The notes under the pieces are model-generated. The model did no database searches, was not told the DNA's origin, and saw only the letters and a program-made list of their open reading frames with translations. 21,093 nucleotides of DNA from a virus: positions 1 through 21,093 of IMG/VR virus record IMGVR_UViG_3300003690_000584. One strand, written 5' to 3'. Positions 1,607 through 9,417 of the stretch are shown in pieces. Both the position numbers and the translations under genes were made by a program. The stretch's first letter is position 1; the number at the start of each line of letters is the position of its first letter.

Positions 1607-2533
1607 TCAAACCTCCATTTTTTTCAAGATGAAACGGCGACTACCGTTCCTGTTGTTTGTGTATTGCGAATAAAGATCAGGGTTATCTGTTTTGAACTTC
1701 GTCCTGTCAAAATAGGAATGATCTTTAGATTTCCTCCAAGTAACCAGGGTAGTGCCGTTATATTCGAGTAATTCTTTATTACCCAGAGCTTTCATTAATT
1801 CAAGTTTAGCATCTTTGATATTGTTATCGATCTCGAGCTTATTTTCATTTAATGTCTGTAGGTTTCTGCAAATATAATAGTGGCTCTCATCAGCCACCTT
1901 AATGCTGTCGGGATCGACATTATAAAATATCTTTCGTGCATCTTCCAGTGATTCAGGCTCTGGAGGTACTTTAGTCAGTACATGGTCTTTCCAGAAGGAT
2001 ATAAGATCACGTTTCATGTCGCTGATAAACTTATCGTCCCGCTCATATTTTTCGATGATTAATTGCTTGTTGAATCCCAGTGAGAGCGAGGCATAATATA
2101 TATACGGCGATTCAGTCACCATCATTTGGTGCTGAAGCTGGACAAAGTAGTGGTCTGGAATCTCCCCGTCCCAAGGCTGTGCCGAGGTTTTGTATTCAAC
2201 GGGAACTTTTTCACCGACCACCATGCCGTCAAGATTGCAGGTCAGGAAATCATAGTCCTTATGAATCCTGATCTTATTGTCCTGCGTAACTGTCAAGCCT
2301 GTCTGTTCCATGAACAGCTTTCTCATGATCGGCTCAAGGTCACGACCCAATCGCATCGCTAGGTTATCTTCAATGGGATTACCGCCATAAACAATATCGT
2401 CCCAAATGTCCACTTTGGACTGCCAGGGATTAACTCCCAGGACGGATGCTGCCTGAGAAGCTCCTATGGACGGATGTTCCTTCCTGTCCTTTAACCAGTC
2501 TTCGTAATTGTCGGGAGCTTTACGATATCTCAT
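1607..2533 (-). CDS. YqaJ/lambda-exonuclease-type recombination nuclease
   Basis: A 308-residue protein with the YqaJ/viral exonuclease signature: IGASQAASVLGVNPW (23-37), RLGRDLEP (61-68), D102 in NLDG, E113-Y-K115 in VEYKT, and QLQHQM (132-137). D102/E113/K115 fit the metal-binding D..ExK triad. Members digest 5' ends of double-stranded DNA and load the partner annealing protein, here RecT just downstream. A TTG-initiated extension to 2638 is open, but I choose ATG 2533: GGAAG lies 7 nt upstream, homology-like sequence begins there, and the extension overlaps another coherent small ORF (2530-2616) in another frame. Confidence 0.93.
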   Translation of the reverse strand: MRYRKAPDNYEDWLKDRKEHPSIGASQAASVLGVNPWQSKVDIWDDIVYGGNPIEDNLAMRLGRDLEPIMRKLFMEQTGLTVTQDNKIRIHKDYDFLTCNLDGMVVGEKVPVEYKTSAQPWDGEIPDHYFVQLQHQMMVTESPYIYYASLSLGFNKQLIIEKYERDDKFISDMKRDLISFWKDHVLTKVPPEPESLEDARKIFYNVDPDSIKVADESHYYICRNLQTLNENKLEIDNNIKDAKLELMKALGNKELLEYNGTTLVTWRKSKDHSYFDRTKFKTDNPDLYSQYTNNRNGSRRFILKKMEV

Positions 2534-2616
2534 AGTACATCTTCCGTGAATAAGTCCCAGATGAGCTTGATGGCGATAGCTGCTATGATTATGAAGCTGA
2601 ATGTATAAACCATCAT
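2530..2616 (-). CDS. 28-residue single-span membrane protein
   Basis: A tiny ORF starting MMVYTF with a hydrophobic stretch of about 16 residues (5-20), ending in an acidic tail (TEDVL). It is predicted to be a single-span inner-membrane peptide. Its ATG overlaps the upstream gene's TGA (ATGA, 2613-2616), and its own TGA overlaps the exonuclease ATG (2530-2533), so it links two genes with 4-nt couplings at both ends. An AGAGG stands just upstream of the ATG. Too short for homology from memory; the double coupling plus SD is the support. Function unknown. Confidence 0.6.
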   Translation of the reverse strand: MMVYTFSFIIIAAIAIKLIWDLFTEDVL

Positions 2617-2798
2617 TTGCCTCTGCTATTATGAACAATCAAAGAATGTTTCTTTATACTATCTCTTTTTTTATCCAATGATTCTCTTGTAACAACCTCA
2701 GTTACCCAGCCTTTTTTTTCAAGTCTCTTTTTTTCTGAGTTAAGCCAAGGGATATCTATTGTCGGCAACCATGTTGTTATTCTCTCTGATGTTTTCAT
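2613..2798 (-). CDS. small basic protein, unknown
   Basis: A 61-residue basic protein (many K/R; EKKRLEKKGW at 22-31, DKKRDSIKKH at 42-51). I do not recognise a family; charge suggests nucleic-acid binding, but this is only inference. It is the first gene after a good sigma70-like promoter (2845-2873), and GGGAGG stands a few bases before ATG 2798. It therefore heads the operon that goes on to the membrane peptide, the exonuclease and RecT. Confidence 0.72.
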   Translation of the reverse strand: MKTSERITTWLPTIDIPWLNSEKKRLEKKGWVTEVVTRESLDKKRDSIKKHSLIVHNSRGK

Positions 2799-2844
2799 TG
2801 ATGACCTCCCTTATTAGTTTACAAATTCAATTAGAAGTTACTAT

Positions 2845-2873
2845 AGTTTACATTATCATCTTCATTAAGTCAA
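2845..2873 (-). promoter_or_regulatory. sigma70-like promoter of the recombination operon
   Basis: On the minus strand: -35 TTGACT (2873-2868), a 17 nt spacer, and -10 TAAACT (2850-2845). Downstream GTAAACTATA-GTAA makes an imperfect direct repeat, also present at the other two leftward operon heads. It sits in the 99 nt gap ahead of the gene starting at 2798. Confidence 0.7.
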
Positions 2874-2897
2874 GTATAAAATGTTATGGCACACATT

Positions 2898-3533
2898 TTA
2901 TTCTGGGACGACTAATTCAACTTCGTGATTGTGCGAGACATTATTCGTAGACTGATTTGTCAGAAGTCGGAATTTATTGATCAGGGTATTGAACAGGGAT
3001 ATAAAGTTATGCATATCCTGTGGCTTGCCGTTAAGCAGTGCTTTATAGTCCACAGTGGTCATAGCTTGGGTCATGCGGATCAGTTCGACCATCATAGAGG
3101 TGGATAGGTAGTTCATTCCCTGTCGTATGGTGGTGGACTGTTGCGCCATGATATCTTCTCTCTTGTCCCACCAATCCCTGAGAGTGGTTCTAGGTATGGA
3201 AAGCATCTGCTCGACCCTGTAGAACAGGGGTTTCAGTTCGCCAGAATATTTATCCTCATTCTGGAAAGCCTCAAGGAACATCAGTGCCAGATGCTGTTCA
3301 TCGATCCTGTACCTGCCGTTCTTTTTGCGGAGTAGAGGTTCGGAGTCGTAAGCAGGCTCATTAAGCTCTAGCGGCTTCATATTGTCCACCACTAGTCCGA
3401 GTGCTTCACCACGTTCCTTGGCGAACTCGATTTCCTCCTCTGACTTCTTATATGCTATCTTTTGTTTAACTTTCTCTGATCTGTCTTTGTCCATAGAGTT
3501 GCTCAAATATATAAAAGATGGAATTAAAATCAT
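2898..3533 (-). CDS. HTH-containing DNA-binding protein, unknown role
   Basis: A 211-residue protein. Residues about 104-120 (RVEQMLSIPRTTLRDWW) look like a helix-turn-helix: a short helix, a turn at I-P, then a recognition-like helix. The N-terminus is charged and probably helical. Such HTH proteins of about 200 residues include phage small terminase subunits and replication or regulatory proteins; I cannot separate these. The position, next to integrase rather than the large terminase, argues against but does not exclude a small terminase. ATG 3533 is 12 nt beyond the integrase stop; ATG 3494 (residue 14) is an alternative, and both have weak SDs. Confidence 0.75.
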   Translation of the reverse strand: MILIPSFIYLSNSMDKDRSEKVKQKIAYKKSEEEIEFAKERGEALGLVVDNMKPLELNEPAYDSEPLLRKKNGRYRIDEQHLALMFLEAFQNEDKYSGELKPLFYRVEQMLSIPRTTLRDWWDKREDIMAQQSTTIRQGMNYLSTSMMVELIRMTQAMTTVDYKALLNGKPQDMHNFISLFNTLINKFRLLTNQSTNNVSHNHEVELVVPE

Positions 3534-3545
3534 AGACTATATCAG

Positions 3546-4136
3546 TTACTCATAATCTATGGCGAATTCCTCATATGCACTATCGATGTTATGCTGATCC
3601 AGCCCGATATACCGCAATGTATGGTCAGGGTCTTTGTGATTCAGCATCTTCATGACCAGTGCCAGGTCTTTGGTCTTGGCATACACATTGTAAGCTAGGG
3701 TCTTTCTCATACTGTGTGTACCAAAATTCTCCACCCCAGCATAGATGGCAGCTTCTTGCAGTATCACATAAGCTCTGACTCTGTCGATAGGTATGGAAGG
3801 GGTTTTCAGTGAAAAGAACAGGTAGTCGTCATTGATCAGTTCATAGTATTGTACATACTCTATCAAAGCTGGTCTGATCTTACTGTTAAGCTTGATCTTC
3901 TTCAGGACACGGTTCTTTCTCTTGATGGTCTTGGACTCAAACAGGTCTAGATACTCTTTCAGTTCGCCACTTCCGTTAAAGAGGTGTTTCACCTTCATTT
4001 TCAGTATGTCCTTAATGCGAAGACCAGTGTTCAGTCCAAACTTAAGCAACAGGGGATCACGCATATTCCCCTTGCGCTCCAGAAATTGGAGCATGATCGT
4101 GATCTGATCGTTATCTTTGATAGGCTGGACGGTCAA
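3546..4136 (-). CDS. minimal tyrosine recombinase (catalytic domain only)
   Basis: The 196 residues cover only a tyrosine-recombinase catalytic domain: R40 in NTGLRIKDIL, a likely beta-hairpin lysine near 69-72, H141-x-x-R144 (THSMRKT), H167 (LNHKDP) and nucleophile Y176 (TLRYIGL). All catalytic positions are present, so it should be active, but the usual N-terminal SAM-like core-binding domain is missing; most phage integrases are 300-400 residues. The start is a TTG overlapping the preceding TGA (TTGA, 4133-4136) with AAGGAG 7 nt upstream. Role could be integration, or resolution/inversion with a partner DNA-binding protein. No attachment site is evident. Confidence 0.9.
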   Translation of the reverse strand: MTVQPIKDNDQITIMLQFLERKGNMRDPLLLKFGLNTGLRIKDILKMKVKHLFNGSGELKEYLDLFESKTIKRKNRVLKKIKLNSKIRPALIEYVQYYELINDDYLFFSLKTPSIPIDRVRAYVILQEAAIYAGVENFGTHSMRKTLAYNVYAKTKDLALVMKMLNHKDPDHTLRYIGLDQHNIDSAYEEFAIDYE

Positions 4137-4357
4137 GAATCTTCTCCTTGTATCCTTTTCTTAACCGCAGCTATTGTCCTTACCCGAAATGCCTTCTGTC
4201 TTGGAATCACATAAATACCGCACTCTGTGCAGATCGCATACTCGTCTAAAATCTCTATCATAGTGCTGTAGTCATCAGCATTAATACACTCTTCGCCACA
4301 TTCTGGACACTCAGCGTTCCAAACGTGTGTAACTGCATTAACTGTTACTATCTTCAT
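4133..4357 (-). CDS. small zinc-ribbon protein
   Basis: A 74-residue protein with CPECGEEC (18-25) and a second knuckle CTEC (43-46), which together form a two-knuckle zinc ribbon. C-terminus is basic (FRVRTIAAVKKR). A nucleic-acid or protein adaptor role is likely but not known. AGGAGG lies upstream of ATG 4357, and its stop overlaps the TTG start of the recombinase, so the two are translationally coupled. Confidence 0.78.
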   Translation of the reverse strand: MKIVTVNAVTHVWNAECPECGEECINADDYSTMIEILDEYAICTECGIYVIPRQKAFRVRTIAAVKKRIQGEDS

Positions 4358-4358
4358 G

Positions 4359-4622
4359 TTATTCTCCTCCTGATTGAATCAATTTGAATCTTTCTTCTAT
4401 CAAATTGTTGAGTGTTGAAAAACATTCCAGACAGTTTACTTTATGAATATCGGATGATATTTTGGGTGTGGGGTTTTTGAATCTTACTCCTTTTTCGAGA
4501 TGATATGTTGGATTTTCCTTTTTCCTTTTTTCATGTTCTCGATCCCACGCCCAATATTCTTTAATCCATTGTGGACATTCGATGTCCTTGATGTACGCTC
4601 CACCGTAGTGTATCTTTCTCAT
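4359..4622 (-). CDS. small hypothetical protein
   Basis: An 87-residue protein with a W-rich N-terminal part (WIKEYWAWD) and a charged middle. There is one CLEC pair near the C-terminus, which could bind metal together with C16. I recognise no family. Two adjacent ATGs occur; the second (4622) is 6 nt from the AGGAGG, the first (4625) only 3 nt, so I choose 4622. It is the first gene behind the promoter at 4647-4675 and leads into the zinc-ribbon and recombinase genes. Confidence 0.72.
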   Translation of the reverse strand: MRKIHYGGAYIKDIECPQWIKEYWAWDREHEKRKKENPTYHLEKGVRFKNPTPKISSDIHKVNCLECFSTLNNLIEERFKLIQSGGE

Positions 4623-4771
4623 CATTGACCTCCTAACTGTTTACATAGTTTACTAATAATTACAATCAATGTCAATAGCCAATTTAACCCGCCAGACAGA
4701 AAGGTAGTACAAGACCACCTTCCTGGTCTGAAACGGGCTTCTAGGGCTATCCTGTGGCGTTTATCGGTCAT
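4622..4771 (-). CDS. possible 49-residue basic/membrane small protein
   Basis: Begins MTDKRHRIALEARF, ends with a hydrophobic stretch (LNWLLTLIVIIS) and KLCKQLGGQ. Its ATG overlaps the TGA of the preceding frame (ATGA, 4768-4771), and its TGA overlaps the next ATG (4622-4625), the coupling style seen in this operon. Against it: the C-terminal half coincides with the promoter at 4647-4675 and a nested hairpin, so the hydrophobic run may simply reflect A/T-rich regulatory DNA. AGAAGGG upstream could serve as SD. Confidence 0.4.
   Translation of the reverse strand: MTDKRHRIALEARFRPGRWSCTTFLSGGLNWLLTLIVIISKLCKQLGGQ
4647..4675 (-). promoter_or_regulatory. sigma70-like promoter of the recombinase operon
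   Basis: On the minus strand: consensus -35 TTGACA (4675-4670), 17 nt spacer, -10 TAAACT (4652-4647). It is followed directly by a tandem GTAAAC-N3-GTAAAC. Architecture and -10 match the promoter at 2845-2873. The SD AGGAGG for the next gene is about 13 nt downstream of the -10, so the leader would be very short. Confidence 0.75.
4689..4737 (-). other. nested imperfect hairpin between leftward operons
   Basis: Three nested arm pairs can be read: CCCG/CGGG (4688-4691 and 4734-4737), CAGAC/GTCTG, and AAGGT/ACCTT. Alternatively an inner perfect hairpin AGACCA-CCTTCC-TGGTCT (4712-4729) can form. There is no U-tract, so it is not a standard terminator. It may be a protein-binding site, a processing site, or part of a recombination site near the tyrosine recombinase; none of these is shown. 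Confidence 0.4.
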
Positions 4772-4889
4772 TTCCCTTCTGCCTTGAAAAAATAACCATA
4801 CACACAACGGGTTTCCTTTTGTTTGAATGGTATGCCATTTTTAACGCCAACTAAACCACCTCTTCTGTGGTTAGTTTCATCGTGTTCAT
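4768..4889 (-). pseudogene. possible frameshifted small ORF
   Basis: ATG 4889 overlaps the preceding TGA (ATGA, 4886-4889) and reads MNTMKLTTEEVV before TAG. In the -1 frame the sequence continues as GGLVGVKNGIPFKQKETRCVYGYFFKAEGK and ends in a TGA that again overlaps an ATG. Couplings at both ends suggest one gene interrupted by a single frameshift. The start resembles that of the preceding gene (MNMKLT versus MNTMKLT). It could also be two unrelated fragments. Confidence 0.3.
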
Positions 4890-5248
4890 TTGGTTTTTTC
4901 CTTGATCTGTTTGTTGATCGACTCGGATGCACTAATACAATTTTGCAGTTCTCGATAGTGTTCTTGGTATTCTTGCCGATCATACACGGCATCATATACA
5001 CTCAAGAAGTCTCTAAAAACCCACACCAAATCTTTCAAGTCGTCAGCCATGTCTTTAGCAATTTTCACATCAATAGAATCCCAAATTGCCGTTTCGCCAA
5101 ACCCTACTTTCAAAAATTGGTCAGGATAGGGGTATCTGAGAAGTCCTATGCCCTTCTCTCTTTCTTTTCCACCATCATAATAGTCGCCTACAAATCTCTC
5201 CATTCCATCAAGCACATTGAATTGACTTGCACTTAATGTTAGTTTCAT
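4886..5248 (-). CDS. hypothetical protein
   Basis: A 120-residue, soluble-looking protein with an acidic and aromatic middle (GDYYDGG, VWVFRDFL) and a C-terminal basic helix (SINKQIKEKTK). No family recognised. Two close ATGs exist: 5254, overlapping the upstream TGA but only 1 nt from the GGAGGT, and 5248, 7 nt from it; I choose 5248. Part of the small-gene cassette array read leftward from 8.4 kb. Confidence 0.72.
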   Translation of the reverse strand: MKLTLSASQFNVLDGMERFVGDYYDGGKEREKGIGLLRYPYPDQFLKVGFGETAIWDSIDVKIAKDMADDLKDLVWVFRDFLSVYDAVYDRQEYQEHYRELQNCISASESINKQIKEKTK

Positions 5249-5250
5249 GT

Positions 5251-5754
5251 TCATACCTCCTTCAGCAGAGACTTAAATAGCTCTACATGATTGTACCTAA
5301 CGTAAACCTCAAGACCTGTCGAGAAAACATTGCTAGTCCGAGGAAATGCGTAGATTACGTCAAGGTCATCCAGTTTGTCGCTCTCGAATAGACTGTGGAG
5401 AGCATCGAACTCATCTGACGGAGAGAATCCGTCTGTTCCACAGAACCATGTATTTGCGACCTCTTTGTATCCAGGCGGGCATTTGCCAGAATAGTAACCT
5501 CTCCATGCATCCGTAGATGTCCATTTTACGGTGTCAAAGTAACTCTCAATATCTGAGTCTTCAGCGTAGGATGTATAGTTACCGCAACAGTAAGTCTCAC
5601 CGTCGCTTGTCTTCTTCGCTGAAACGACTGCTTCTGCAAGATCATCGCTTTCACAGTCCCAGCAGAGAGGTTCTCCTGCATCTTCTCCTATGGTGGCGCA
5701 AGCGTAATCGTCCTTTTCCAGTATTTCTTCGCAGCTTATGCATTTGATAGTCAT
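5251..5754 (-). CDS. zinc-finger-like hypothetical protein
   Basis: A 167-residue acidic protein beginning MTIKCISCEEILEKDD, with CISC and CWDC (two knuckles about 27 residues apart), so an N-terminal zinc ribbon is likely. Further cysteines (YCCGNY, KCPPGYK, WFCG) may form another site. Function unknown. The start at 5754 is chosen over an upstream ATG because GGAGG stands just ahead and the same leader precedes two neighbouring genes. The preceding gene's TAA shares one base with this ATG. Confidence 0.75.
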   Translation of the reverse strand: MTIKCISCEEILEKDDYACATIGEDAGEPLCWDCESDDLAEAVVSAKKTSDGETYCCGNYTSYAEDSDIESYFDTVKWTSTDAWRGYYSGKCPPGYKEVANTWFCGTDGFSPSDEFDALHSLFESDKLDDLDVIYAFPRTSNVFSTGLEVYVRYNHVELFKSLLKEV

Positions 5755-6038
5755 TATTCTTCCTCCTCTATTCCTTCCTCTGGAATTTCTATACCTTCCC
5801 ATTCTTCGGTGGGAGTAAATCCGTAGAGGATATTCATGTCATCAATGGTGTAGACGATTTCCTGACCTGAGATTTTCTCTTGCAGATCATCGCCTGTAGC
5901 CCCAAAACAGCTAGCAAGGCTGGAAACTCCGTAGCCACTTTCGATATGGACAATCCGTCCATCCTCGAAGACCAAGTCCCAAAGTCCAGACATTGAAAGT
6001 CCAGACAGTCCTCTTATTGTACCTTTAAATGTGGTCAT
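5754..6038 (-). CDS. hypothetical acidic protein
   Basis: A 94-residue protein starting MTTFKGTIRGLSG, predicted beta-rich in the first half (GLWDLVFEDGRIVHIESG), with a very acidic tail (PEEGIEEEE). I do not recognise it. ATG 6038 is preceded by GAGGAGG and is preferred to ATG 6056 upstream. It lies 4 nt from the preceding stop and shares a base with the next start, in a three-gene block with near-identical initiation regions. Confidence 0.72.
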   Translation of the reverse strand: MTTFKGTIRGLSGLSMSGLWDLVFEDGRIVHIESGYGVSSLASCFGATGDDLQEKISGQEIVYTIDDMNILYGFTPTEEWEGIEIPEEGIEEEE

Positions 6039-6042
6039 TATT

Positions 6043-6378
6043 CTACCTCCTCTCACGAATTACAAGCTCTTCGTAATCTGATATGCAACCACCACAGATG
6101 AATTCACCAATGACCCATCCATGTTCTACTGGCAATGTAGGCTCTTCGCAGTCTATGCAAGGTGCTTTCCCATCGTCATGAAATACAATATCAGTGAACG
6201 TATTGTCGCAATGAGTAATGGCACATTCATCTGAATAGCAGATATTAACTCCAGACGTATTAGTGGCTCTTGAACCACCCGTCTTATCTGCTGGTTTACC
6301 ACAAATATCACAGTCAGGGACTTCGCCATGATCCCAAAGCTGTCCACCACCTCGAAAGTATCCTGTTTTTACAGTCAT
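6043..6378 (-). CDS. multi-cysteine zinc-ribbon protein
   Basis: A 111-residue protein with CDIC (23-26), a C-x4-C pair in ICYSDEC (47-52), CIDC (74-77) and CGGC (95-98). This suggests two zinc ribbons. Such small metal-binding phage proteins often act on host or phage nucleic acids or proteins, but no specific role can be given. AGGAGG stands 9-10 nt ahead of ATG 6378, in the shared leader GAGGAAGAATAATG. Confidence 0.75.
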   Translation of the reverse strand: MTVKTGYFRGGGQLWDHGEVPDCDICGKPADKTGGSRATNTSGVNICYSDECAITHCDNTFTDIVFHDDGKAPCIDCEEPTLPVEHGWVIGEFICGGCISDYEELVIRERR

Positions 6379-6395
6379 TATTCTTCCTCCTTCTC

Positions 6396-6558
6396 TTAAA
6401 ACTGCTGAATGATAAAAGACTCACCATCGACAGGAATAACTGTCGTCTGCTCTTCAATGTCTTCTATCGTTTTGTTTCAGCCCCTGATAGGTGAAGTTGT
6501 CTGGACGTAGCTGTTCAAATGCTCGATGAAAAGTATGTTCGTTTACTGTCTGTTTCAT
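6396..6558 (-). pseudogene. frameshifted small conserved-type gene
   Basis: ATG 6558 (with AAGGAGG upstream, and ATGA overlap with the previous stop) reads 34 codons, including FHRAFEQLRPDNFTYQGLKQ, to a TGA at 6454. Removing one base from the four-base run at 6470-6473 restores one reading frame to the TAA at 6396-6398, adding TIEDIEEQTTVIPVDGESFIIQQF. The joined product (53 residues) resembles, from memory, small phage proteins with an F..AF....DNFSYEGL segment followed by an acidic helix. True decay, a sequencing error in the homopolymer, or a +1 recoding event are all possible. Confidence 0.6.
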
Positions 6559-6776
6559 TTTCGTTCCTCCTTGATTAGCTTCTCTTTTAACTCTCTTGCT
6601 TTCCAAACAGCATCTTGACAATCTGTGCATATTGACCTCATTACAGCATCATCAGGTATGGCTTTTATTTGTCTTGTACATGCTGCTTCTAAATCATCAA
6701 GAGTTATTAACCCTTGTCTTTCTAAATGCTCATGACAATCTCTTGTTAGCTTAACATCTTTTAATAATATTTTCAT
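6555..6776 (-). CDS. small hypothetical protein
   Basis: A 73-residue charged protein with CTDC near residues 50-53 and a helical, basic C-terminus (KARELKEKLIKEERK). No family recognised. ATG 6776 has GAAGGAG just upstream; the TGA overlaps the next ATG (ATGA). Member of the small-gene array. Confidence 0.7.
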   Translation of the reverse strand: MKILLKDVKLTRDCHEHLERQGLITLDDLEAACTRQIKAIPDDAVMRSICTDCQDAVWKARELKEKLIKEERK

Positions 6777-6801
6777 GGTTTCTCCTTCTCTTATTTATCT
6801 C

Positions 6802-7085
6802 CTAACTTCCAACACAAACATCTAGGGTTTTATCTTTAGGATTATAATAAACAGATTCTAAAAACATACCCCAATAGCCACAGTCACTTATAATTTCAGA
6901 AGTGGCTTTTATAGAGAACTTGTTTCCAATAAGCCACTCTTGACTTCGACTTCAGTTTTTGATTTATAGTTTTTCCAGACATCTTTATTAATATCCAACT
7001 TATAATCCATCATTTTAGTTGAGATAATATAATTACCGTCTGGGGCATCAATTTTATTATCAAGTAAACTATTAATAATATTCAT
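6802..7085 (-). pseudogene. frameshifted hypothetical gene
   Basis: The stretch has no long intact ORF. ATG 7085, behind AAGGAG, reads MNIINSLLDNKIDAPDGNYI and on to EVEV, then would stop at 6909. In the -1 frame the text continues as QEWLIGNKFSIKATSEIISDCGYWGMFLESVYYNPKDKTLDVCVGS to a TAG at 6804. Joining near the tandem GAAGTC-GAAGTC gives a coherent protein of about 94 residues. Either a base has been lost there or the assembly is wrong. Function unknown. Confidence 0.6.
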
Positions 7086-7114
7086 TTTCGTTCTCCTTCT
7101 CTGTTGTGGCTAGC

Positions 7115-7315
7115 TCAGTCAAAATAGCTTACTACTTCACAGTAAACTTCTTCAAAAAGTTCTCTTCCAAGTTCTGTGAATCCTGATGGATCATCATCAG
7201 TTACTATATTAGTGAGTAGCTCTTTCTCCTGAAGTATGCCATGATCAATTAACATACCAATCACATGATCCCCTATGTTGCATCCTACCTCAATACCGTT
7301 TATCTTCTGTTTCAT
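7115..7315 (-). CDS. small acidic hypothetical protein
   Basis: A 66-residue acidic protein (TDDDPSGFTELGRELFEEVYCEVVSYFD), likely helical; no family recognised. It is the first gene 3' of the hammerhead at 7335-7388: cleavage would give an RNA whose 5' end lies about 25 nt before ATG 7315, with AGAAGGAG as SD. Acidic small phage proteins are sometimes DNA mimics or host inhibitors, but nothing proves this here. Confidence 0.72.
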   Translation of the reverse strand: MKQKINGIEVGCNIGDHVIGMLIDHGILQEKELLTNIVTDDDPSGFTELGRELFEEVYCEVVSYFD

Positions 7316-7334
7316 TATACTTTCTCCTTCTCTT

Positions 7335-7388
7335 GGTTAAGACGGGGAACAAGTCCCCGTTTCTGGCATTAGCCTTCGTCAGTTAACC
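7335..7388 (-). ncRNA. type I hammerhead ribozyme (copy B)
   Basis: Read on the minus strand: stem I 5' arm GGTTAA (7388-7383), core CTGACGA, stem II GGC-TAAT-GCC flanked by an A-A mismatch next to the core, GAAA, stem III CGGGGA-CTTGT-TCCCCG, then TC (U16.1/C17) and stem I 3' arm TTAACC (7340-7335). The GAAA terminal A pairs with the U of the TC. Cleavage is expected 3' of C at 7341 (GUC site). It lies between the stop of one small gene (7395) and the start of the next (7315). Confidence 0.9.
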
Positions 7389-7394
7389 TGTTAA

Positions 7395-7589
7395 TCAGGA
7401 TATGCGTTCTGCTTTGGCGATTAAAGAATGTCTGTACCAATGATAGGCAATGTTATCGCCACCATAGGTGTAGCACTCATAATCTGAGCAATACCCAAGA
7501 TTGTTGTTTTCTACTATTCCTGTTAAAACCATCTTATCGCCAGCATACCAAATAGTAGCAATTCCGATGTCTGATTTTGTGTGCTTCAT
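7395..7589 (-). CDS. small hypothetical protein
   Basis: A 64-residue protein starting MKHTKSDIGIATIWYAGDKM, beta-rich in the middle with aromatic residues (YCSDYECYTYGG). No family recognised. ATG 7589 is chosen because GAAGGAGG lies just upstream; the longer frame from 7625 would begin inside hammerhead A and has no SD. The TGA lies 6 nt upstream of the first base of hammerhead B. Confidence 0.7.
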   Translation of the reverse strand: MKHTKSDIGIATIWYAGDKMVLTGIVENNNLGYCSDYECYTYGGDNIAYHWYRHSLIAKAERIS

Positions 7590-7621
7590 TTTACTTCCTC
7601 CTTCTCTTGGTTTTAAGTTTA

Positions 7622-7677
7622 CCATCGATCCCCAGCATTGACTGGGGATTTCGTCCCTTTAGGACTCGTCAGGATGG
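7622..7677 (-). ncRNA. type I hammerhead ribozyme (copy A)
   Basis: Read on the minus strand: stem I 5' arm CCATC (7677-7673), core CTGACGA (7672-7666), stem II GTCC-TAAAG-GGAC, GAAA (7652-7649), stem III TCCCCAG-TCAATG-CTGGGGA, then TC and stem I 3' arm GATGG (7626-7622). Every helix is perfectly paired and every core residue matches the hammerhead consensus. Cleavage is expected between 7627 and 7626 (AUC site). Outside stem I, GAGT/ACTT can form a distal extension with an internal loop, as natural type I hammerheads use for loop-loop contacts. Confidence 0.94.
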
Positions 7678-7680
7678 CTG

Positions 7681-8037
7681 TTACTCAGGATCAGGGAATA
7701 TTCGAGCCTCTTCCTCTATAATCGCCTTCTCGTCGTTCCTGTACCAAGCTATTTCACCCACAGTATGATTCCCATCGTCAGTCCAAAGGGACAGAGAGAA
7801 AGGATCAGTGCTGATGTAGATTTCATTGCCCCATTCCTTTATGAAGGTATCAAACCATTCCTTCTCTGGAGAATGTGCCAGATTTGCTGTCGTGAAGACA
7901 GTATCGTTATGTTTATGAGTAACCACTATCGGTAATCCACGACTGTCAAAGTATATTGACTCCTGTAGATTGAGATGCCATACTTTTCCATCCACAGCCA
8001 CAATTGGCAGTAAGGTGTTTAGTTTGAGTGTTGTCAT
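7681..8037 (-). CDS. hypothetical protein
   Basis: A 118-residue soluble protein, beta-rich, with many aromatic and acidic residues (EKEWFDTFIKEWGNEIYI). Not recognised. It is framed by ribozymes: hammerhead C ends about 31 nt before its ATG (8037), and hammerhead A begins 3 nt after its TAA (7681-7683). AAAAGGAG serves as SD. Processing at both sites would yield a monocistronic RNA. Confidence 0.75.
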   Translation of the reverse strand: MTTLKLNTLLPIVAVDGKVWHLNLQESIYFDSRGLPIVVTHKHNDTVFTTANLAHSPEKEWFDTFIKEWGNEIYISTDPFSLSLWTDDGNHTVGEIAWYRNDEKAIIEEEARIFPDPE

Positions 8038-8067
8038 TTTCGTTTCTCCTTTTCTTGGTTAGTTATT

Positions 8068-8126
8068 GTCACAGACCCCGAGAATCAATCTCAGGGTTTC
8101 GACCATTCAGGTCTCGTCAGCGTGAC
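8068..8126 (-). ncRNA. type I hammerhead ribozyme (copy C), overlaps stop codon
   Basis: Read on the minus strand: stem I 5' arm GTCACG (8126-8121), core CTGACGA (8120-8114), stem II GACC-TGAAT-GGTC, GAAA (8100-8097), stem III CCCTGAGA-TTGAT-TCTCGGGG with one U-G pair, then TC and stem I 3' arm TGTGAC (8073-8068) with one G-U pair. Cleavage is expected between 8074 and 8073 (GUC site). The UGA stop of the upstream gene (8119-8117) is part of the CTGACGA core, and the last sense codons form stem I. Confidence 0.93.
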
Positions 8127-8413
8127 TCTTCTACTCTCTCTATGAATCCGTAAGGATTGTCTCTGTTACCTGCTGGCTTGGAGTAGATAGCTTGCTCTAC
8201 TTCATATTCCACTAAGTCAGATATTTTTACCTCCATCCATTCTAAGAATGCTGAGGCAATACCCACAGGAGACTGATGCTCATAATTCACATCTAATGTT
8301 ACCTTTTCCACTGGTGTACCATCTCTTGTTAATAACATCTCTATATTTGTACTCCTGTTCCACCTGTCCACCTCACTACTATGCTGTACTGTTATTACGT
8401 CATTCAGTTTCAT
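8117..8413 (-). CDS. hypothetical protein, first gene of the leftward cassette array
   Basis: A 98-residue protein starting MKLNDVITVQHSSEVDRWNR, beta-rich at the N-terminus and acidic-helical after (FLEWMEVKISDLVEYEVEQAIY). Unrecognised. ATG 8413 is preferred to ATG 8440 because GGGGA lies 7 nt ahead of it. Its last codons and UGA are embedded in hammerhead C, so terminating ribosomes should compete with ribozyme folding. It is the first gene left of the divergent intergenic region. Confidence 0.72.
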   Translation of the reverse strand: MKLNDVITVQHSSEVDRWNRSTNIEMLLTRDGTPVEKVTLDVNYEHQSPVGIASAFLEWMEVKISDLVEYEVEQAIYSKPAGNRDNPYGFIERVEESR

Positions 8414-8452
8414 CGTCTGTTCCCCTTTATTGTTGACCATATTTTACCTAAA

Positions 8453-8500
8453 TCAAGTTACACTATTTACAACAGTTTACCAACACTATTTTCTATAATA
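8453..8500 (-). promoter_or_regulatory. probable leftward operon head with GTAAAC repeats
   Basis: Minus strand carries GTAAACTGTT-GTAAATAG around 8480-8463, the same paired GTAAAC motif as at the promoters 2845-2873 and 4647-4675. The TAAACT (8479-8474) lacks a good -35 at 17 nt. An alternative is TTGGTA, 17 nt, TAACTT. A promoter is expected here from context, but the exact hexamers are uncertain. Confidence 0.45.
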
Positions 8501-8621
8501 ATGTATAAAAGAGATATCTGGACATCCTCCTCGACAAAATGAATGTATGACTGATTGATACCGCTAGTATTACCTATTAGACTGGTATTCGTGACTCGAT
8601 CCTAAAGCCTAGGTGAAGAGA

Positions 8622-8640
8622 GGGAGGGAGAAGGGTAGGG
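8622..8640 (+). other. G-quadruplex motif
   Basis: Four runs of GGG with spacers of 1, 4 and 2 nt (8622-8624, 8626-8628, 8633-8635, 8638-8640). It meets the usual G3 N1-7 definition. A second G-rich block at 8844-8914 has several GGG runs with longer gaps. Confidence 0.6.
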
Positions 8641-8706
8641 AAGGTATCACAATCACCGCCCGCCATCTAATGTCGAGGGGTCAGAGGGTGGCAATGAGCC
8701 AATTTG

Positions 8707-8732
8707 CACAACAATTTAGGTATAATGTTGTG
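8707..8732. promoter_or_regulatory. operator-like inverted repeat around a -10 box
   Basis: Perfect 7-nt arms CACAACA (8707-8713) and TGTTGTG (8726-8732) flank TATAAT (8721-8726), preceded by AGG. A repressor bound to the arms would cover the -10. No convincing -35 stands 16-18 nt upstream, so promoter activity is uncertain. Confidence 0.4.
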
Positions 8733-8960
8733 TAGTTTCTCGTCGAGAGACCTTGGATATCCTTATAATATGCATACTATCGGTCATGATGGCATACAAT
8801 TGTAGGGTGCGTGATCCTTCTATGGTGTGTAGGTGTGATGTGTGGGTGGTGTGTGGGTGTGTGTGGTCGATAGTGGGGAGGGTGACCCACCCAGTAGTTG
8901 GGGGGCGGGGTGTCGTTATCGTTATAGCACACGCTTACACCAAACGGTTGAATAAATAGG

Positions 8961-8987
8961 TTGACAAATTTAACATTATGTTATAAT
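8961..8987 (+). promoter_or_regulatory. rightward promoter, possibly giving a leaderless mRNA
   Basis: Consensus -35 TTGACA (8961-8966) and consensus -10 TATAAT (8982-8987), spaced 15 nt; a second register, TAATAT at 8984-8989, gives a 17 nt spacer. The next ATG is at 8995, where transcription would start, and no SD precedes it. Confidence 0.65.
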
Positions 8988-8994
8988 ATCAGAT

Positions 8995-9189
8995 ATGATT
9001 GTTTCCAAGAAGAAGCATGACAAACTCGTATTGGCACATGATAAAGAGTGCAAGAAGAACAGGGAGTTCTCGACATTTATATCTCAGATAGTTGAAATTA
9101 TAAAGCAATGGGAGATCAACAAGATAGGCAACATGAGAGCCATAACTTCCATAAGTTCATTATTCGCTGATGGTAGGGATAAAGAGTGA
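8995..9189 (+). CDS. small basic protein, first rightward gene
   Basis: A 64-residue protein starting MIVSKKKHDKLVLAHDKECKKN, mostly helical and basic; no family recognised. It begins 8 nt after a consensus -10 box and has no SD, so it may be translated from a leaderless message. Its TGA overlaps the GTG of the next ORF (GTGA, 9186-9189). Confidence 0.6.
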   Translation: MIVSKKKHDKLVLAHDKECKKNREFSTFISQIVEIIKQWEINKIGNMRAITSISSLFADGRDKE

Positions 9190-9320
9190 TTAATTTCACA
9201 ATAGGGTTCATTTTCGGATTATTCGTCATGTTTATACTATTGAGCATATCATTTGTGGTAAGGGACGAGCATGAGATAGAGAGGCGTAGGCGGGAGAGGG
9301 AGCGTATCAATGCAGGATAG
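9186..9320 (+). CDS. 44-residue single-span membrane protein
   Basis: GTG-started ORF reading MINFTIGFIFGLFVMFILLS, a hydrophobic segment of about 22 residues, then a highly charged tail (RDEHEIERRRRERER). It is a small membrane-anchored protein with a cytoplasmic-type charged helix. AGGGA is 7 nt upstream, and the start overlaps the preceding stop by 4 nt. A lysis accessory or regulator is possible given the endolysin 100 nt downstream; unproven. Confidence 0.6.
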   Translation: MINFTIGFIFGLFVMFILLSISFVVRDEHEIERRRRERERINAG

Positions 9321-9417
9321 CACAGATAACTGCGAGCATGATAACACAATATATCAGGCAGAGGAGTTTGACACCAACACTCCAGAGCGTTATTATTGTG
9401 GGGATTGCGAAACATAA
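9310..9417 (+). CDS. 35-residue cysteine-containing micro-protein
   Basis: ATG 9310 reads MQDSTDNCEHDN and ends YYCGDCET. C8 and H10, with C30 and C33, could bind one zinc ion. AGGGAG stands upstream; the start overlaps the membrane ORF, and the TAA shares a base with the endolysin ATG (TAATG). Coupling and ligand pattern support it; function unknown. Confidence 0.5.
   Translation: MQDSTDNCEHDNTIYQAEEFDTNTPERYYCGDCET

Follow-up and report, generated by a model that had tools for sequence, protein, structure and literature searches.

The window analysed here, a stretch of 21,093 nucleotides (nt) forming positions 1 to 21,093 of the IMG/VR virus record IMGVR_UViG_3300003690_000584, carries on its minus strand three elements (A, B and C, between positions 7335 and 8126) that by their sequence are type I hammerhead ribozymes, each lying at a junction of a leftward operon of small genes. 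We consider it likely, at a probability of roughly 0.8, that these elements would act in cis as "stop - cut - start" linkers, by which the leftward early operon of a marine tailed phage would process itself into single-gene mRNAs. The analysis demonstrates the sequence, structure and covariation of the elements, their strand, their position at gene boundaries and their spread among viruses.

Type I hammerheads in the window

A strict descriptor of type I hammerheads (core CTGANGA, stem II, GAA, stem III, UH and stem I) was matched exactly three times in the window, always on the minus strand, and not once in 1000 dinucleotide-preserving shuffles of the window searched on both strands. The elements, their parts and their predicted cleavage positions are listed below, together with scores from the covariance model described further on.

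8068..8126, minus strand: hammerhead C (descriptor; covariance model, 52.7 bits; folding), with stem I GTCACG/TGTGAC, core CTGACGA, stem II GACC-TGAAT-GGTC, GAA, stem III ACCCTGAGA/TCTCGGGGT and C17
Between 8074 and 8073, minus strand: predicted cleavage of hammerhead C
7621..7678, minus strand: hammerhead B (descriptor; covariance model, 48.3 bits; folding), with stem I GCCATC/GATGGT, core CTGACGA, stem II GTCC-TAAAG-GGAC, GAA, stem III ATCCCCAGT/GCTGGGGAT and C17
Between 7627 and 7626, minus strand: predicted cleavage of hammerhead B
7335..7388, minus strand: hammerhead A (descriptor; covariance model, 43.0 bits with one mismatched pair marked; folding), with stem I GGTTAA/TTAACC, core CTGACGA, an A10.1-A11.1 mismatch followed by stem II GGC-TAAT-GCC, GAA, stem III ACGGGGA/TCCCCGT and C17
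Between 7341 and 7340, minus strand: predicted cleavage of hammerhead A

When each copy was folded with its flanks, the minimum-free-energy structure and the centroid both equalled the hammerhead secondary structure. All three copies have the CUGANGA core, GAAA and the NUH triplet in the correct order (GUC in A and C, AUC in B), and the three helices, open at stem I and covarying in relatives, are those of type I. The G10.1-C11.1 pair that opens stem II is present in B and C and is A-A in copy A; loop II reads UGAAU in C, UAAAG in B and UAAU, of 4 nt, in A, and both of the As that flank stem I are found in every copy.

A first-pass annotation made from the letters alone had proposed three minus-strand type I hammerheads here, and the descriptor, the shuffles, the folding and the covariance model bear this out. 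The downstream 5' ends that it predicted (7340, 7626 and 8073) were also obtained by our element-by-element reading. Its description of the helices stands in that they are paired and the cores are in order, but stem I is 6 base pairs (bp) long in all three copies, that of B being GCCATC/GATGGT with a closing G-U. Copy A is not canonical throughout, since its stem II has only 3 bp behind the A10.1-A11.1 mismatch.

Several observations weigh against reading these elements as a set of working linkers. Only three of about 18 leftward junctions in the window carry a copy. Copy A departs from its own close relatives at virus contig loci compared with the window (given here as L-numbers): L007 and L008, 93% identical to it over 59 nt, carry a G-C pair and a UGAAU loop in place of its A10.1-A11.1 mismatch and its loop II of 4 nt. 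Rfam 15, used at gathering thresholds, gives no match in the window, nor any hammerhead in 12 other hammerhead-rich contigs. Below threshold, RAGATH-1-hammerhead (RF03152) matches C at 39.3 bits and B at 33.8 bits against a gathering value of 56.3, and copy A has no listed Rfam match even there. Hammerhead_1 (RF00163) does not reach its gathering value of 34 bits in the window or in the 12 contigs, its single listed sub-threshold match scoring 31.5 bits.

Since Rfam is equally silent on the 12 hammerhead-rich contigs, we ascribe the miss to the limited reach of the Rfam models for a design of this kind. The window copies share with RF00163 the type I topology and the catalytic core, and with RF03152 a type I-like order of core elements and a short stem I; the RF03152 model, however, includes a hairpin upstream and a stem II of a single pair, whereas stem II in the window copies is 3-4 bp long. 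RAGATH-1, the best Rfam match, was rejected as a class for these copies on threshold, stem II and the upstream hairpin, and a sub-threshold SNORD11 match on the plus strand was set aside as chance. As regards the A-A appositions at 10.1/11.1, these recur in L039, L247, L266 and twice in L267, so the mismatch would be either tolerated or a slow variant. The activity of copy A is doubtful, and because it lies off the class at this pair, a count of three active ribozymes is less certain than a count of two.

A covariance search had been proposed in the first-pass annotation as a means of telling the copies from background, and by Rfam its outcome is formally ambiguous. An independent covariance model (R1) was therefore built from 33 sequences found by pattern scans of virus contigs, with the window and its terminase relatives left out. 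This model, derived from other viruses, scored the three copies at 43.0 to 52.7 bits with filters off, the next best site in the window reaching 8.4 bits; no more divergent copies were found with it, filters off, at other window junctions.

A class of covarying elements in many viruses

Two pattern scans were made of viral contigs. Scan 1, which used the core, a TNAAT loop II, UC and a downstream AAGGAG and did not use stems I and III in the choice, returned 60 loci, while scan 2, which used the GGTTAA/TTAACC stem I, returned at least 120, several of them on near-duplicate contigs. The GGTTAA-scan loci are biased in stem I; the loci of scan 1 and the relatives found through the terminase are free of that bias. 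As judged from these sequences, the class is widespread in IMG/VR, on well over 100 other virus contigs. Its design combines a stem I of 6 bp flanked on either side by an A, a 4-bp stem II and a 5-nt UNANU loop: of 235 copies whose stem I is 6 bp long, 232 have an A directly before the stem and 233 directly after it, and loop II is mostly UNANU. From the conservation of these As and of loop II we infer a conserved tertiary contact, in which loop II would touch the A-flanked open end of stem I, as a counterpart of the classical loop I-loop II contact.

The class also occurs in two cultured phages, the Methylophilales phage MEP301 (701-755, between gp02 and gp03, 62.6 bits) and the Flavobacterium phage elemoB (17211-17271, 53.7 bits). 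The GGTTAA form is rare in bacterial genomes: a pattern scan of bacterial genome contigs found it on five, two of which (MKTZ01000026.1 and JAGIAT010000003.1) are long contigs of Bacteroidota metagenome-assembled genomes. Two further observations concern variants. The Roseobacter phage CRP-7 (L278:552-595) has a weak hammerhead-like match of 18.5 bits with CTGATTA instead of CTGANGA, perhaps a decayed copy, and L187 has at least six hammerheads, each followed by a shared stretch resembling AAAAGT(C/G)AGG..GCA(C/G)ACTATAACAGGC in place of the Shine-Dalgarno leader.

The helices vary freely while remaining paired. Among the 64 scan 1 sites, stem I occurs with 30 distinct strand sequences and stem II with 21, and stem I is fully paired (6/6) in 61 of the sites, against a mean of 8.7 and a maximum of 16 when partners were shuffled; for stem II (4/4) the count is 58, against a mean of 10.4 and a maximum of 17. 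An alignment of 107 matches (87 distinct) to the model, which leans towards the structure, has 488 two-sided changes, compared with 140 when shuffled and 35-72 when partners were slid; sliding by 1-3 columns lowered the paired cells from 99% to 30-39%. In a free alignment of the 33 equal-length sequences, which had been chosen for pairing, the two-sided changes numbered 156 against 36.

Exchanged helices with pairing preserved are also seen in relatives of this phage. Relatives of its terminase were found on 80 viral contigs, most at 65-88% identity, and relatives of its integrase on six; in these 86 loci, some of which are parts of the same contig, model R1 made 24 matches, all on the window's transcription side. 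Between copy C and its counterpart in L048, stem III is identical and stem I differs (GTCACG/TGTGAC vs GGTTAA/TTAACC), being paired in both.

These patterns also bear on whether the elements might be inactive relics, or ordinary intergenic hairpins such as terminators, RNase III sites or attenuators. The strong stem III hairpin and the off-consensus copy A would suit such an account, but an invariant CUGANGA...GAAA...UH core accompanied by free helices in many contigs does not, and stem III is followed by no U-run, with no terminator-like site on the minus strand in 6300-9400. We regard this account as highly improbable. A terminator or promoter explanation was also tried and rejected, as scan counts equalled the shuffled expectation.

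Gene boundaries and identity islands

Each copy lies between two small open reading frames (ORFs) and ahead of a similar AAGAGAAGGAG-type leader (repeat family D1), as had been noted at first pass. The ORFs and leaders, in the order of leftward transcription, are:

8117..8440, minus strand: small ORF upstream of C, 107 amino acids (aa) or shorter depending on the start, with no Pfam or PHROGs match
8030..8060, minus strand: Shine-Dalgarno leader after C, AACCAAGAAAAGGAGAAACGAAAATG..., repeat family D1
7681..8037, minus strand: small ORF between C and B, 118 aa, with its TAA stop two bases upstream of copy B
7582..7612, minus strand: Shine-Dalgarno leader after B, AACCAAGAGAAGGAGGAAGTAAAATG..., repeat family D1
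7395..7589, minus strand: small ORF between B and A, 64 aa
7308..7338, minus strand: Shine-Dalgarno leader after A, AACCAAGAGAAGGAGAAAGTATAATG..., repeat family D1
7115..7315, minus strand: small ORF downstream of A, 66 aa

The same position is seen throughout the class. We asked for the stop of an ORF of at least 50 codons at -6 to +13 relative to the first base of the element, and for the ATG of such an ORF within 45 nt downstream; 147 of the 223 copies with enough flank had both. On the reverse strand none did, and at random positions 0-2. When the ORF cut-off was relaxed, the median distance from element to next start was 17 nt, and the stops clustered at two positions: +6, where GGTTAA supplies a TAA, and +10, where the CUGA core supplies a TGA. 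The largest array, in L097, packs 14 copies into 6.3 kb, and only one gene boundary of its cluster is without a copy. The L097 operon (2083-8837) consists of small ORFs and a large protein with a weak HATPase match that looks rIIA-like by eye. In the window, too, the arrangement is that of clustered phage hammerheads, in which single genes or short blocks of genes are flanked by at least two hammerheads on the coding strand of the phage. Covariation and gene context in many virus contigs thus strongly back the first-pass call of type I hammerheads placed one per junction in an operon on the early side of a phage.

The stop codons raise a further account, in which the ribozymes are active but their cut is regulated: ribosomes terminating at a stop inside stem I or the core would let translation of the upstream gene control release of the downstream mRNA. 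The pile-up at +6 and +10 would suit such coupling, and the ORF upstream of copy C ends within the CTGACGA core of that copy (TGA, 8117-8119), but stops at these positions may simply be an economy of sequence. We regard control of this kind as unlikely.

The leftward operon is inferred to be early because it encodes RecE- and RecT-like proteins and an integrase, and because it diverges from the packaging and capsid genes. Between the divergent operons, the region 8700-8990 is conserved at about 75-83% in L003, L007, L008 and L048 and is probably an early regulatory region. In L007, L008, L013, L042 and L045, all relatives of this phage, genes of one family lie next to a hammerhead. Two of these genes, those of L007 and L045, were scanned, and both encode the N-terminal ArdC domain and the zincin domain of an anti-restriction protein; the sites concerned are L007:3344-3397, L045:3377-3434 and their neighbours. 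ArdA genes beside hammerheads are known from Agrobacterium and Legionella (Perreault et al. 2011, PMC3088659). The ArdC-type neighbours fit an early anti-defence region with a fast turnover of genes.

No convincing Pfam or PHROGs family was found for the ten small leftward ORFs scanned, the 118-aa ORF has no relatives in viral contigs, and the genes beside the window copies have none among the loci compared. A search for DNA relatives of the hammerhead region among deposited phages found none. In the leaders after B (7590-7626) and C (8038-8073) lie TTAAAACCAAGAGAAGGAG and CTAACCAAGAAAAGGAG, which resemble the TTAACCAAGAGAAGGAG at the immediate end of copy A; they may be remnants of an older GGTTAA-type hammerhead that was replaced by B and C.

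While flanking genes differ, the junctions themselves can be shared:

7587..7691, minus strand: identity island comprising the whole B junction, 100% identical over 105 nt to L048, with unrelated flanking genes on both sides

The B junction is also 94% identical to L045, again with unrelated flanking genes. As islands of identity between unrelated genes, the junctions may serve as recombination linkers. In its strong form, this account holds that a shared 60-105 bp lets phage recombinases swap whole genes, cleavage being secondary or incidental. In agreement with it, the window encodes the RecE- and RecT-like proteins, and the gene that follows hammerhead B in L045, an ORF of 73 aa (3125-3346), appears to be present in shortened form as a window ORF (6454-6569) that has no hammerhead. 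A pure DNA linker, however, has no need for helices that change on both sides around a fixed catalytic core. Moreover, 140 nt of the window (4638-4777), within an ORF that has no hammerhead, are 98.6% identical to L048 and form another mosaic island, so mosaicism is not special to the hammerhead junctions. We consider it less likely than not that recombination is the principal role.

Proposed processing and relation to known systems

Under the reading that we prefer, self-processing into single-gene mRNAs, each RNA would fold during transcription and then cleave 3' of its C17. The upstream product would keep its own stop codon, and its 3' end would be formed by the GC-rich hairpin of stem III followed by U-C and carrying a 2',3'-cyclic phosphate; the downstream product would begin with a 5'-OH on a leader of 25-37 nt bearing the Shine-Dalgarno site. 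The outcome would be single-gene mRNAs made with no need for host RNase III or extra promoters. A 5'-OH end would escape the bacterial RNA decay pathway that a 5'-monophosphate stimulates, and a terminal hairpin would slow 3' exonucleases. The benefit would be that the stability and translation of each gene are independent and that genes are free to be exchanged at the junction. Cleavage, its speed, the RNA ends and this benefit are predictions from sequence.

Cutting at gene boundaries has a parallel in the early mRNA of T7, a polycistronic phage transcript from which RNase III releases stable mRNAs ending in 3' hairpins. In T7 the cut is made by a host enzyme, whereas here the RNA would cut itself, leaving a 5'-OH and a cyclic phosphate. 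In T4-type phages, mobile regulatory cassettes are short regulatory segments between genes that act as shuffling linkers; those are units of promoter and stem-loop, while the segment here is a ribozyme with a Shine-Dalgarno leader.

The closest precedent is in prophages, where multiple hammerheads flank single genes and a splitting of the transcript was proposed (Perreault et al. 2011, PMC3088659); cleavage was shown there, for other examples than ours, in three tandem arrangements in vitro and one in E. coli. Since the same function was proposed in that paper, the kind of arrangement is already known, and the precedent supports splitting into single-gene RNAs with 5'-OH ends as the natural reading of our elements. 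The published hammerheads comprise types I, II and III, about 40% having a predicted Watson-Crick pseudoknot, whereas those described here are uniformly type I, with an A-flanked 6-bp stem I, a 5-nt loop II, a stop that falls at the element or within it, and as many as 14 copies in an array. Beyond that paper we found no report of this exact arrangement in the open literature, a weak absence as subscription papers lay mostly outside the scope. Among open papers, the uniform type I design, the stop inside the element, the one-per-gene arrays, the spread through virus contigs and the identity islands are apparently undescribed.

A 2017 review (PMC6155905) describes as open what hammerheads do in bacteria and phages. 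That role becomes directly testable with a class that is uniform, keeps to gene boundaries, forms arrays of up to 14 copies and is present in the two cultured phages MEP301 and elemoB as test systems. We would like to note that a large set of phage ribozymes escapes Rfam at its thresholds. More tentatively, and at somewhat less than even odds, this widespread uncatalogued class may be a mobile "stop-cut-start" linker that makes inserted early genes independent units, the arrays of up to 14 being self-dicing operons in which ribosome termination may time the cut. The findings suggest that phages could dice their operons, and shuffle small early genes, independently of the host.
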